Origin: Acidobacteriota bacterium
GTDB lineage: Bacteria > Acidobacteriota > UBA890 > WLXD01
NCBI GenBank assembly: GCA_012103255.1
Contig: WLXD01000003.1
Location: 453,984 to 517,983 of the forward strand
Length of the DNA stretch: 64,000 bases
Direction of reading: 5' to 3'
Each line of letters starts with the position of its first letter. Within the stretch, counting starts at the first letter, position 1. The position numbers and the translations under genes were made by a program. A model generated the notes under the pieces. That model saw nothing but the letters and a program-made list of their open reading frames with translations, was not told the DNA's origin and made no database searches. Below, piece after piece: positions 26,302-31,238 of this stretch.

Positions 26302-27231
26302 CTACTTCTCGACGACGAGGAGCGCAGACATGACCTCGCGCTCGATCTGGGCGCCAAGCGGCCGGTTCACGAGCACGCCATCCACGACGAGCGTACTCGA
26401 ACCGCCACCGTCCAGGTTCACCGCCTCATCCACGCCGAGCTCAAGCATGATGTTCGCCAGCTCCAGGAGATCCACGCCCCGGCTCTCGCGCTGCCGGCCA
26501 TCGATCACCACGAGAACCAGGTCGCCCTCTGGAGTCACGCCGGCCGCCGTTCGCGGGTTGAGTTCCGGAATGGCAGTTCCGAAGAAGACCTCCGCGTCCG
26601 TGGCCACGTGGATCTGACCGTCCATCACGAGCACGGGGCCCGCCGCCAAAGCATCGTGGGCCGGCCATACCTTGAGTTCATCAAAATCGAGCCCTGTAAC
26701 CGGAAGCTCCGCGGCGTTGGGCGGCGGCGACACCCACTCGTAGAGCACGCCATCGCGACTCGACACCCAGGCGACGTCGGCCTGTCCGCCCGGCAGGAAA
26801 CCCAGGGCGCCGCGGGCGAGGAAGTACCGCTCGCCGTCACGGAGCACCGAGTCCATCGCGGGCTCGATGATCTCGCCGTCGACCATCAGCAGGCCAACAT
26901 GCCTCATCGGCGACTCGCCCATGCGGAAGTAGCCCCCGTTGAGGACGACGCGGGCGTCGCTCTGTTCGGCAAACTCCGAACCGATCTCCACACCATCCGT
27001 GTCGGTCGACGCCGCGACTCTGACGCCGAGCTCCGGCGATGCTTCGATCCTCACTGACCACGCTCGCAGCGGCGCTTCAGGGTCTGTGCCGGAGTACACG
27101 CGGATGGTCTCGGGCAATGACGCATTGAGAGCCTCCACTGGCTCCCACTGCACCATGAGTGGCGCGGGCGCAGTCTCGGCGCAGGCTATGATTATGAGCA
27201 GCAGCGCCACGACACCGACTCCGCGCTTCAC
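26302..27231 (-). CDS. phosphodiester glycosidase (NAGPA-domain) lipoprotein
   Basis: 309 residues from a GTG that overlaps the Nudix stop (GTGA). A lipobox (I-I-I-A-C, Cys17) makes it a lipoprotein. The domain is PF09992-like: N-G-G-Y-F-R-M near residue 97, G-P-V-L-V-M-D-G, and the diagnostic E-A-V-N-L-D-G-G-G-S-S-T-L-V near residue 275. Relatives cleave N-acetylglucosamine-1-phosphodiesters or related glycan phosphodiesters in the envelope. The link to peptidoglycan or capsule is an inference. Confidence 0.88.
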   Translation of the reverse strand: MKRGVGVVALLLIIIACAETAPAPLMVQWEPVEALNASLPETIRVYSGTDPEAPLRAWSVRIEASPELGVRVAASTDTDGVEIGSEFAEQSDARVVLNGGYFRMGESPMRHVGLLMVDGEIIEPAMDSVLRDGERYFLARGALGFLPGGQADVAWVSSRDGVLYEWVSPPPNAAELPVTGLDFDELKVWPAHDALAAGPVLVMDGQIHVATDAEVFFGTAIPELNPRTAAGVTPEGDLVLVVIDGRQRESRGVDLLELANIMLELGVDEAVNLDGGGSSTLVVDGVLVNRPLGAQIEREVMSALLVVEK

Positions 27232-27809
27232 GCTCGACTCTCGGCTTCGCGCAGCAAGGCGAGGTAGTGGAATGCGGCGACGACCAGGGCGTGGTCAATC
27301 GTTCCGGCCCGGATCATTGCGCTGATATCTGCCAACGGCACCAGCCGGACGGCGATTTCCTCATGCTCTTCGAGGGCGGTAGGCCCGGTGATAGCGGCGC
27401 CGCGAACCAACACGGTGTGGCACCGATTGTTCAGCAACGCTGGGTTAGGCGCGACACTACCGATCGACAAGAAATCGTCCGATCCATAGCCCGTCTCTTC
27501 CAGCAATTCGCGCACGCCGGCGGCCACGGGATCCTCGCCGGGATCGACCATTCCGCCTGGAATCTCCAGGGTCACTGCGTTGGTGCCATGCCGAAACTGC
27601 TCGATGAGCACGACCTCGTCGGCTTCGGTCAACGCGATCACGTTCACCCAGTCGGCCGAGTCGAGATAGACGAACTCACCAGGGTTCTCGGGATGTGCAG
27701 GAGAGGCCGCTCGCCGGCGACGGAGCGTGAAGATGCGCGTCTCGGCGACCACCTGGTCGCCCAGCTCGCGCCATGCCGGCACCATCGAACCGAGTGGCGC
27801 GTCACTCAA
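27228..27809 (-). CDS. NUDIX hydrolase, ADP-ribose pyrophosphatase type
   Basis: 193 residues from a TTG that overlaps the end of the AhpD-like gene by 8 bases. The Nudix box is complete: G-G-M-V-D-P-G-E-D-P then R-E-L-L-E-E-T-G-Y (G-x5-E-x7-R-E-x2-E-E-x-G). The upstream V-L-I-E-Q-F-R-H-G and downstream H-T-V-L-V match ADP-ribose/GDP-mannose pyrophosphatases (NudF/YffH). It hydrolyses nucleoside-diphosphate-linked compounds to a monophosphate and a phosphate ester with Mg2+. Substrate is not decidable from sequence. Confidence 0.9.
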   Translation of the reverse strand: MSDAPLGSMVPAWRELGDQVVAETRIFTLRRRRAASPAHPENPGEFVYLDSADWVNVIALTEADEVVLIEQFRHGTNAVTLEIPGGMVDPGEDPVAAGVRELLEETGYGSDDFLSIGSVAPNPALLNNRCHTVLVRGAAITGPTALEEHEEIAVRLVPLADISAMIRAGTIDHALVVAAFHYLALLREAESRA

Positions 27810-28344
27810 GAGTCACTCCGAGTCCATCGGCAATTCGGTTGACGTACGCGTAGTAGGCGGCAACCTCGGCGATCGCGAGAATGTCCGCGTCCTCGAAACC
27901 CGTGTCGCGAAGGCCTCCAACATCGTCCGAGGTCATGTCCGCCGGCGTCAACGTGAGCTTCTCGGCGTACTCCAACATCGCCAGCCGACGAGGATCGAGC
28001 CCGGCAGTGCGGTAGTCCTCGACAATGCGATCCACAAGCGCGTCGTCGCGAAGTTTCCGGCGCAGACCGCGCCGGTGATGGGTCATTCAGTAGTGACATG
28101 CGTTCAGCTGTGAAACGACCACAGCGATCATCTCGCGCTCGGCGCCCCGCAGCGTGGGGGTACCTCGCATTACCGCCGAATAAAGGTCCTGATGTGCTCG
28201 GAGGCCCGCGGGGTGGAGCGAATGAACCTGCAGCACATGGTCGAGCTTGCCGGACACCGGGTCGCGGACTTCCTCGTACAGCTCCGCCAGCGCCGGATCG
28301 GCATCCTCTTCTGCGACTGTGCGGATCCAGGCGGGTTTCGACAT
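27802..28344 (-). CDS. AhpD-like (carboxymuconolactone decarboxylase family) peroxidase, predicted selenoprotein with in-frame TGA
   Basis: One continuous frame of 180 residues interrupted only by TGA at 28087-28089. Reading TGA as selenocysteine gives N-A-C83-H-Y-U86-M-T-H-H90, matching the AhpD relay motif E-x11-C-x2-C-x3-H (Glu71, Cys83, U86, His90). Sequence on both sides belongs to the 'uncharacterised peroxidase-related enzyme' branch: S-Q-L-N-A-C-H-Y before, H-H-R-R-G-L-R-R-K-L-R-D-D-A-L-V after. A perfect hairpin follows the TGA at SECIS spacing. Such proteins are thiol-dependent (hydro)peroxidase partners; CxxU would be more nucleophilic. Read conventionally, two useless fragments result (85 and 94 residues), the second starting at the ATG right after TGA. 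Alternatives: a base error for TGC/TGT or a nonsense mutation. First gene of a run with Nudix and NAGPA genes; GGAAGA precedes the ATG. Confidence 0.75.
28057..28075 (-). promoter_or_regulatory. candidate bacterial SECIS hairpin
   Basis: In the mRNA, CCGGCGC and GCGCCGG form a perfect 7-bp stem closing a 5-nt loop GGUCU. Counting U of UGA as 1, the stem starts at 15 and the loop occupies 22-26, with G23 and U24 in the loop. From memory, the E. coli fdhF SECIS has GGUCUG at the same positions and SelB contacts G23 and U24. The bulged U17 of fdhF is absent here. The hairpin is within the coding region, as in other bacteria. No selA, selB or selC gene is in the window. Confidence 0.6.
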
Positions 28345-28415
28345 CGATCTTCCCGTGAGTCGGAGCCCGAAGCGGGCACCGCTAGAATCAGGGCACTCCT
28401 TGTACCGCGAAGAGC

Positions 28416-28625
28416 GTGATGATGCCCCAATTGATCGAGCGAGGCCTGTGCCTCACCTGCGTTCACGCCCGTCGGGTCGCAACCCGCCGCGGCTCGGTGT
28501 TTCTGATGTGCCAGGCGGCCGAAGACGATCAACGGCTGCGCCAGTATCCACAACTTCCGGTGCGGGAGTGCCATGCGTTCCGCGAAGAGCGCCCCACCGA
28601 GACGCCGGCGGCGGACCCGCGCTAG
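28416..28625 (+). CDS. small four-cysteine protein, probable zinc-binding
   Basis: 69 residues from GTG 28416 (ATGs at 28419 and 28422 are equal candidates). Cysteines are arranged C-L-T-C ... M-C-Q ... E-C-H-A-F, with the stretch C-V-H-A-R-R-V-x-T-R-R-G-S-V-F-L-M-C and Y-P-Q-L-P-V-R-E-C typical of a widespread small uncharacterised family in GC-rich bacteria. Four cysteines suggest one bound zinc. Diverges from the AhpD-like gene, sharing the 71-bp gap as promoter region. Function unknown. Confidence 0.75.
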   Translation: MMMPQLIERGLCLTCVHARRVATRRGSVFLMCQAAEDDQRLRQYPQLPVRECHAFREERPTETPAADPR

Positions 28626-28707
28626 TCCACGCGTTCACCCCCGCGTTGGGGTACGGTTTCTAACCGTCCGGCCGGGCCGTTGCCCGGCCACTACGCTGGA
28701 AGCGCCG

Positions 28708-30384
28708 ATGCACTACTGGACCCGCCGAATCGCAACTCTCGTTCTCTTCGTGGCCATGGTGATCCCCGCGCTCGCACCCGCGCAGGAAGAGGGTGAGCAA
28801 GCCGCACCCCTGGCCTGGGACAGCACGTACGAATTGCCGGGCGAGGACATCCAGGAGATGTTCCGGCGCGACAAGAACTTTGCGGTTCTCGATACGCCGT
28901 CGGGCAACGGCGAGTTTTTCCTTGTGCCGCGCTACAGCGAGCTGTCGACCGTCGCGCGCATGGGCGAGTCGACGCAGCGCCTGGCAGGTCTCGAGCTCCG
29001 CGGCCAGCGCAACCGCACCTGGCGTCTCGATACCTACGGCATTGTTGGCGCGAGCGTTTATCACCTTGAGAACGCTGCAACGACTGAGCTTCAACTGGCC
29101 GACGAGAGCCACTATTCGGACTTCGCGTTCTCTCCCGACGGCGTCCACATGGCGGTGCTCCGCCACCCGTACAACGGTCCGACCGAGCTCTGGATGGTGG
29201 ACCTCCCCAGCGGCCTGGCAGGACGGCTCAGTGTCGTTGAGCCGCTCGCAACACTGGCGAGTCGCGTCGAGGGCTCCAGCGCACGCCAGTCGTCGACGGT
29301 CCAGGTGACGCCCGACGGTGAAGTGATCACGCTGGGAGTACCCGCGGGCCGAGGCCCCGCGCCCGAACGCGGTGTTCCGGCCGGCCCCGTCGTCCGACGG
29401 ACTCGCGACAAGGCCCTCGCCAACCCCACCTATCCGTTCCTGCTCGAAGACGCCCACGAAGAACAACTCTTTCGCTACCACACGACCTCGCAACTGGTCC
29501 GCGTTGAGCGCGACGGTTCGGTGGTGGCGATGGGCGACCCGGGCATGTTCACCAGCATCCAGCTAAGTCCGGATGGTGAGCACGTGCTCACCGAACGCAT
29601 CGTCGATCCGCTGTCACCGCTGGTGAGCGCCTTCGCCTTCGGCCGGATCCTCGAGGTTCGCGACATGAGCGGAGCCGTTCTCGAAGTCATTCGGGAGACG
29701 CCCCTTCGCGAGGGACGCGGCGGCAACAACGACCGTGACCAGCCGCGCGAGGTGATGTGGCTGCCGGACGGCTCGACTCTCGCCTGGCTGCAGCGAGAAA
29801 GTCAGGGCGACGAAGATACGGACGACGCGGCCGGCGAGGATGAAGACGCAGAAGCCCCGCTGGACCAGATCTTCCTGCTCGACGCCCCCTTCGCGATCGC
29901 TTCGATGCGTGTCGTGGCTAGCAGCGACGATTCGCTGAGCGGCCTCGGCTTCAACAAGCCGGGCTCGCTGGCGTTCGCCGAGGTCAGTGTGGACGGCGGC
30001 AAGCGCGTGCTGCGGCAGTTCACGGTCTCAAACGGCGAGGCCGCCGACCTCACAGATCCCTGGGACGCTCGTGACCCGCTCGCCCTGCCGGGGCAGTTGC
30101 TGGAATGGCACGACGCGATGGGCAACCCGCATGTCATCACCGAGACAGGCCAGGCAGCGGTTTTCCTGCAAGGCGCAGGATTCCAGGAAGACTACCGACC
30201 ACGGCCGTTCGTCGATCGCGTGGCGACAGTGAACGCGTCTTCGAGGGCGCGACCGACACGTACGAGCGCCCGCTGGTCCCGCTGGATCGCGACGTCACTG
30301 GACTGCTGGTGCAGCGCGAGTCTGCGACGACATTCCCCGACACCTGGCGCTGGACTCGCGATGGCGGCTTCGGCGACCGGCTGA
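28708..30384 (+). CDS. S9 family peptidase, N-terminal propeller part (frameshifted)
   Basis: Starts at ATG 28708 with a signal peptide (A-T-L-V-L-F-V-A-M-V-I-P-A-L-A). Propeller blades (F-S-P-D-G-V-H-M, L-S-P-D-G-E-H-V, W-L-P-D-G-S-T-L) extend to about 30228 (V-D-R-V-A-T), after which the frame turns into an Arg/Ser-rich tail that is not native. The true continuation is in the other frame from 30231 (E-R-V-F-E-G-A-T-D). Adding one G between ACA and GTG near 30228 restores V-A-T-G-E-R-V-F-E-G. The whole gene, 28708-31238, would encode about 843 residues, a normal S9 size. Confidence 0.82.
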   Translation: MHYWTRRIATLVLFVAMVIPALAPAQEEGEQAAPLAWDSTYELPGEDIQEMFRRDKNFAVLDTPSGNGEFFLVPRYSELSTVARMGESTQRLAGLELRGQRNRTWRLDTYGIVGASVYHLENAATTELQLADESHYSDFAFSPDGVHMAVLRHPYNGPTELWMVDLPSGLAGRLSVVEPLATLASRVEGSSARQSSTVQVTPDGEVITLGVPAGRGPAPERGVPAGPVVRRTRDKALANPTYPFLLEDAHEEQLFRYHTTSQLVRVERDGSVVAMGDPGMFTSIQLSPDGEHVLTERIVDPLSPLVSAFAFGRILEVRDMSGAVLEVIRETPLREGRGGNNDRDQPREVMWLPDGSTLAWLQRESQGDEDTDDAAGEDEDAEAPLDQIFLLDAPFAIASMRVVASSDDSLSGLGFNKPGSLAFAEVSVDGGKRVLRQFTVSNGEAADLTDPWDARDPLALPGQLLEWHDAMGNPHVITETGQAAVFLQGAGFQEDYRPRPFVDRVATVNASSRARPTRTSARWSRWIATSLDCWCSASLRRHSPTPGAGLAMAASATG

Positions 30385-31238
30385 CCGCAAACACCGACTC
30401 CTTCCCCGAAGTCACCGAGGCGACGCGCAAGGACTTTGAGTACACGCGCCGTGACGGACTCGCGGTGCAGGGGCGCATCTGGATGCCAGTCGGCTGGCAA
30501 GAGGGCGATGACGCCGTCCCCGCTATGATCTGGACGTACCCGAGCGAATACGAGACGCCGCGCGACTACGAGCGCGACGCCGTACGCGACTGGAACGCCA
30601 ACGAGTTCGACCACATGAGCTACCTGCGCTGGTCGCTGCTGTGGACCACCCAGGGCTACGCGCTCGTGCATCCCGACGTCCCGATCGTCGGCGAGGACTA
30701 CAACGACAACTTCATCCAGCACCTCAGCGACTCGCTCTACGCCGCGATTCGCCACCTCGACAACCTCGGCCTGGTCGACCCGGACCGCATCGGCCATGGC
30801 GGACACAGCTACGGTGCCTTCGCCACCGGCAACCTGCTCACGCGTACCCCGTACTTCAAAGCGGGTATCGCCGGCGATGGCGCGTACAACCGTACGCTCA
30901 CCCCAATGGGGTTCCAGCGCGAGTCGCGCTACATCTGGCAGGCGCTGGGCACGTACCTGAACATGTCGCCGTTCTTCCACGCCGACCATCTCGACACGCC
31001 GCTGCTGATGTACCACGGCGGCGACGACAACAACACGGGCACGTTCCCGATCCAGTCGCGCCGCTTCATGCAGGCGCTGCAGGGTCTCGACAAGAACGCG
31101 GTGCTCTACGAGTACCCGTTCGAGTCGCACGGGCCGCGAGCGATCGAGTCATACCTCGACCTGTGGAAGCGCTTCATCGACTTCTTCGACATGTACGTGA
31201 AGAATCCGGCAGCGCCGGTCGAGGCCGACGAGGAATGA
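30231..31238 (+). CDS. S9 family peptidase, C-terminal catalytic part (frameshifted)
   Basis: Continuation of the gene at 28708 in the -1 frame. It contains the end of the propeller (F-P-E-V-T-E-A-T-R-K-D-F-E-Y) and a complete alpha/beta hydrolase domain: nucleophile G-H-S-Y-G in H-G-G-H-S-Y-G-A-F, acid in Y-H-G-G-D-D-N-N-T-G, base His in F-E-S-H-G-P-R. F-P-I-Q-S-R-R-F and Y-E-Y-P-F-E-S-H are typical of the S9 'glutamyl/prolyl' exported group. ATGA overlap with the uridine kinase gene. If the frameshift is real, no active protease would be made. Confidence 0.82.
   Translation, partial: ERVFEGATDTYERPLVPLDRDVTGLLVQRESATTFPDTWRWTRDGGFGDRLTANTDSFPEVTEATRKDFEYTRRDGLAVQGRIWMPVGWQEGDDAVPAMIWTYPSEYETPRDYERDAVRDWNANEFDHMSYLRWSLLWTTQGYALVHPDVPIVGEDYNDNFIQHLSDSLYAAIRHLDNLGLVDPDRIGHGGHSYGAFATGNLLTRTPYFKAGIAGDGAYNRTLTPMGFQRESRYIWQALGTYLNMSPFFHADHLDTPLLMYHGGDDNNTGTFPIQSRRFMQALQGLDKNAVLYEYPFESHGPRAIESYLDLWKRFIDFFDMYVKNPAAPVEADEE

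Follow-up and report, generated by a model that had tools for sequence, protein, structure and literature searches.

The hairpin that follows an in-frame UGA codon in an AhpD-like gene of an Acidobacteriota bacterium is, with a probability that we put at about 95%, a bacterial SECIS element, and the UGA is accordingly predicted to be decoded as selenocysteine (Sec). This prediction draws on the conservation of the TGA codon among homologs, the association of the hairpin with TGA rather than with Cys codons, synonymous covariation within the stem, and the presence of the complete Sec machinery in the same genome. The window analyzed here is a 64,000-nt stretch of contig WLXD01000003.1 (assembly GCA_012103255.1, positions 453,984 to 517,983, forward strand); the features discussed below are listed in Table 1.

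Table 1. Coordinates, within the window, of the predicted selenoprotein gene, its putative recoding signal, and the adjoining gene
Feature	Position	Strand	Remarks
Predicted bacterial SECIS stem-loop	28057..28075	-	stem of 7 bp joining positions 15-21 and 27-33 (U of UGA = 1)
Apical loop GGUCU, positions 22-26	28064..28068	-	G23 = 28067, U24 = 28066
Predicted AhpD-like/peroxidase-related selenoprotein gene	27802..28344	-	180 aa, Sec at codon 86; ATG 28344-28342, stop TGA 27804-27802
In-frame UGA, predicted Sec codon 86, motif CHYU = CxxU	28087..28089	-	TGA in 101/128 distinct homologous stretches
Cys83 codon, partner of Sec86 in CxxU	28096..28098	-	translation with TGA = U
NUDIX hydrolase gene	27228..27809	-	PF00293, 56.6 bits; TTG start overlaps the 3′ end of the selenoprotein gene (TTGAGTGA)

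The reading frame of the AhpD-like gene is interrupted solely by this TGA (28089-28087), and the 94 codons on its 3′ side are open and conserved. In profile searches, the protein translated with TGA as U scores 46.1 bits against PF02627 (the CMD/AhpD fold; cut-off, 23) and 143.5 bits against TIGR01926 (peroxidase-related; curated cut-off, 81.8), which places it in the AhpD-like family. AhpD-fold enzymes carry out peroxide or thiol reduction at a CxxC motif. In an alignment with the relatives of known structure, 3c1l and 2pfx, Sec86 takes the place of the second CxxC cysteine, so that the CxxU motif corresponds to the CxxC of the Cys-containing members. The NUDIX hydrolase gene is a neighbor of the selenoprotein gene in all four genomes of the family, with the TTGAGTGA junction in three of the four, and the two genes probably share one transcript. 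On the plus strand, a prolyl-oligopeptidase-like gene (28573-31238) is seemingly split into two overlapping frames, 28573-30384 and 30105-31238, of which only the latter scores as Peptidase_S9; a frameshift or an assembly error near 30105-30384 is possible.

When the U of UGA (28089) is taken as position 1, C15 to C21 (28075-28069) form seven Watson-Crick pairs with G27 to G33 (28063-28057), and the perfect stem, the loop at positions 22-26, the coordinates, and the numbering that were given in a preliminary description of this DNA all prove exact. The isolated 19-mer hairpin folds with -14.0 kcal/mol. Folding of a 70-nt segment that surrounds the UGA, a check suggested in that description, has the stem as the main local fold, present in both the minimum free energy (MFE) and the centroid structures; this segment as a whole is not unusually stable (z of -1.45, with 17 of 200 shuffled sequences as stable). 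The bacterial SECIS (bSECIS) model (PMC13188914, section 5) defines such elements by the sizes of stem and loop, a G in the loop, the spacing from the UGA, and the MFE. The hairpin has an upper stem of 7 bp (4 to 16 in the model) and a loop of 5 nt (3 to 9), the loop GGUCU carries a G in its first two positions, where the model has G, usually followed by G or U, the distance from the UGA to the apical loop is 18 nt (positions 4-21; 16 to 37 in the model), and the energy lies below the limit of -7.5 kcal/mol. A search of Rfam returned 5 matches up to an E value of 10, none of them near the gathering score of its family, and these were taken as chance. An intrinsic terminator was also considered and rejected: neither of the two terminator-like sites in 27200-28700 coincides with the hairpin, which has no T-run after it.

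Among the 1,575 TGA trinucleotides on both strands of the window, a perfect 7-bp stem exactly at 15-21/27-33 follows only one, the Sec UGA. A hairpin score was defined as that of the best uninterrupted hairpin whose loop starts at 17-38 and carries a G within its first two positions; by this measure the Sec TGA ranks first, with a score of 22, among the 20 TGA codons of the window that lie between two open GC3-rich stretches, the next one scoring 14. When the codons are redrawn synonymously, an equally good hairpin appears in approximately 1.7% of the draws, and the total MFE of positions +4 to +45 is matched in 4.0%. Taken by itself, the loop heptamer has no diagnostic value, since the genome contains the pattern TGA + 18 bases + GGTCTGC 3 times and a reversed control 10 times.

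An alternative that has to be weighed against these numbers is a genuine stop codon, or an error of sequencing, in a gene that is decaying or misassembled, with the hairpin as a by-product of the GC-rich codons for Arg-Arg-Gly-Leu-Arg-Arg. Arg codons do favor such stems, and some 7-bp hairpin with a G early in the loop is found within the allowed range after 16 of 1,574 TGAs of the window, but the distribution of the codon itself makes this explanation very unlikely. The homologous loci were re-searched with tblastn, which yielded 131 stretches (128 distinct) that span the Sec position. The codon at that position is TGA in 101 of the distinct stretches, Cys in 25, and Ser in 2, and the TGA homologs come from several phyla, as judged by record titles; this conservation in practice refutes a stop or an error, and the open and conserved downstream part of the gene also speaks against them.

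The hairpin, in turn, goes with TGA and not with Cys. A hairpin score of at least 15 is reached by 87 of the 101 TGA stretches and by 3 of the 25 Cys stretches (Mann-Whitney p of 1e-12, a value that ignores relatedness), which is the outcome expected in the preliminary description, where the stem was to be kept with TGA and lost with Cys. At p<=0.05, 53 of 101 TGA stretches and 0 of 25 Cys stretches outscore sequences redrawn synonymously with the local codon usage. The 14 TGA stretches with scores below 15 include some fairly close relatives (L088, L057, L025, and L026); four of the 14 are at 51 to 54% identity and have 5-bp stems. A comparison of whole-segment MFE with synonymous redraws gives a weaker contrast (p<=0.05 in 12 of 70 TGA homologs, with a mean z of -0.95, against 0 of 16 Cys homologs, with a mean z of -0.20), probably because nearby sequence adds noise, and the hairpin-specific score was therefore used. 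Two Cys homologs (L118 and L124) keep Gly-Leu-Arg-Arg and yet have a hairpin score of 0; the peptide thus does not force the hairpin, in agreement with the preliminary description, and this observation also speaks against a mere by-product of Arg codons. A search for closer Cys homologs found none above 46% identity (the nearest being L028), and within the class of the window gene TGA is present in 11 of the 11 matches listed, so that the Sec/Cys contrast spans distant sequences. On a Dehalococcoidia contig (L039), four Sec-type AhpD-like copies are arranged in tandem, each with a TGA and a strong hairpin.

Within the nearest group, the stem has changed in the paired manner that the preliminary description predicted for TGA-containing relatives. 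The hairpin type of the window (register 15-33) is represented by 11 distinct sequences, in which pair 18-30 is G-C in 6, G-U in 2, C-G in 2, and A-U in 1 and is never broken; as its two bases occupy third positions of Arg codons, none of these changes alters the protein. In the outer pair 15-33, C-G occurs in 6 sequences and U-A in 1, and the pairing is lost in 4; the remaining five pairs are invariant. Of 500 shuffles, 1 attains the covariation score of this set, and 94.8% of the cells are paired in the actual structure, compared with 22 to 51% in slid structures. Two cruder measures, based on pairs altered on both sides and on additional pair types, are unremarkable (equaled in 130 and 137 of 500 shuffles, respectively). 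The loop is GGUCU in 9 of the 11 sequences and GGGCU in the other 2 (L055 and L087), which have G in place of U24 and retain both the TGA and the stem.

Across the family, the hairpin occupies several registers, depending on the Sec-containing branch or paralog, which can be described by the pairing axis, i.e., the sum of the paired positions. The axis is 44 in 59 of the 101 TGA stretches, 61 in 17, 48 in 11, 46 in 8, and other values in 6; the register of the window gene (15-33) is thus found in 11 of 101, and most other sequences are centered 2 nt closer to the UGA. In the axis-44 type, pair 17-27 is G-C in 28, C-G in 11, and G-U in 1 sequence and is broken in 0 of 40, an unbroken pairing that arises partly by construction, since this set was grouped by the hairpin itself. 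The axis-61 sequences form one group and mostly encode Asp-Leu-Arg at U+7 to U+9, and four genomes (G001, G003, G046, and G038) carry both kinds of copy. In a Sec-type group of five stretches (L076, L077, L078, L079, and L098), the hairpin loop lies at positions 28-33 instead of 20-26.

Residues that follow the Sec position also differ between the two kinds of homologs. At U+9, Arg is present in 59 of 70 Sec homologs, compared with 5 of 16 Cys homologs. The preliminary description had cautioned that conserved Gly-Leu codons could account for part of the likeness between the window element and that of Escherichia coli fdhF; both genes do encode Gly-Leu in the same frame, but the Gly at U+7 is present in 32 of 70 Sec homologs and in 0 of 16 Cys homologs. 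These differences, in a comparison that ignores ancestry, fit a peptide shaped by the RNA. A tentative interpretation, to which we give somewhat less than even odds, is that the SECIS of this family has shifted its register with SelB recognition kept, and that the peptide after Sec (e.g., Arg-Arg-Gly-Leu-Arg-Arg) is dictated by the RNA signal and not by the enzyme.

The host genome (4.8 Mb, 9 contigs) encodes everything that Sec insertion is expected to need: SelB (319.6 bits; cut-off, 242.25), SelA (534.1 bits), SelD (329.9 bits), and a tRNA-Sec (65.9 bits; gathering score, 47) with the anticodon TCA according to ARAGORN. The host selD gene (L084) is itself predicted to encode a selenoprotein, with an in-frame TGA at 1531 (motif GGUAAK); downstream of this TGA lies a 5-bp stem whose loop, CGGGU, occupies positions 20-24, the register more often seen. 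Among 396 genomes of the phylum, SelB is found in 253, and homologs of the AhpD-like protein at E<=1e-25 are found in 66, of which 60 have a TGA copy. SelB is present in 57 of these 60 genomes, compared with 196 of the 336 others; the TGA-copy genomes with no SelB match are G007 (75% complete), G265 (72%), and G276 (97%). Since the inserted residue is predicted from sequence, decoding of the UGA by another tRNA (e.g., as Trp or Cys), with the hairpin only stimulating read-through, is a further alternative. The co-occurrence of tRNA-Sec, SelA, SelB, and SelD, the prevalence of Cys as the main alternative residue in homologs, and the fit of the loop to the bSECIS model make such decoding exceedingly improbable.

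In the likely course of events, a ribosome would reach the UGA of the AhpD-like mRNA while SelB carrying Sec-tRNA(Sec) would bind the apical loop downstream, presumably through G23 and U24. SelB would then deliver selenocysteine, and the product would be the 180-aa Cys-x-x-Sec protein in place of an 85-aa fragment. This Sec-containing protein probably acts in the reduction of peroxides or thiols, as do other enzymes of the AhpD fold, and would have Sec where they have the second cysteine of CxxC. The codon right after the TGA in the window gene is ATG, and termination at the UGA with a restart at TGAATG, aided by the hairpin, could be imagined to produce two half proteins. However, Met occupies U+1 in just 8 of 70 TGA homologs, with Thr, Val, Ile, Leu, or other residues elsewhere, and the restart was ruled out on these grounds; it would also split the CxxU motif in an organism that possesses the Sec machinery, and we regard it as highly improbable. 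The assignment of Sec to this UGA has several implications. Standard annotation would split or cut this gene at the UGA, an error that is corrected here; the stem is a clean example of synonymous covariation in a SECIS that lies within coding sequence; and the family becomes one where the RNA signal can be traced over many genomes, along with its register and the peptide that it encodes.

The window gene belongs to an already known family of CxxU selenoproteins. An "AhpD-like protein, TIGR01926, CxxU" appears among the known selenoproteins in a portion of PMC13188914, and an AhpD-like CxxU family with predicted SECIS elements was, according to the relevant part of PMC1088965, first reported from the Sargasso Sea metagenome; sections of PMC2398784, PMC9312934, and PMC1794560 also belong to this background. 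The window gene shares with that family the TIGR01926 cut-off, the CxxU motif, and a TGA followed by a bSECIS-like hairpin with a G in the loop, but it comes from a different lineage, its nearest named relative being an Acidobacteriota MAG. NF041238 (AhpD_rel_CFYUT) likewise describes an AhpD-related CxxU (seleno)protein with a CFYUT motif, but the window protein, at 46.9 bits, stays below its cut-off of 175. The likeness to the fdhF element of E. coli, whose geometry the hairpin had been said to match, holds for the position and sequence of the loop: in the actual MG1655 sequence, GGUCUGC at positions 22-28, including G23 and U24, is identical, which bears out the GGUCUG given for fdhF in the preliminary description. 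Recognition of G23 and U24 by SelB, also stated there, is backed by a review (PMC8659212), in which binding by E. coli SelB needs U17 and G23 and the bulged U17 is essential. Here the match ends, because the bulged U17 of fdhF is without a counterpart in the AhpD-like element, whose G17 pairs with C31, so that E. coli SelB might read this element poorly. The element is therefore no copy of that of fdhF, from which it also differs in having an uninterrupted 7-bp upper stem and no extended lower stem. Since it fits the bSECIS model and TIGR01926 is already listed among selenoproteins, the resemblance is best taken as that of two bSECIS elements that share the position and sequence of their loops and serve unrelated proteins.
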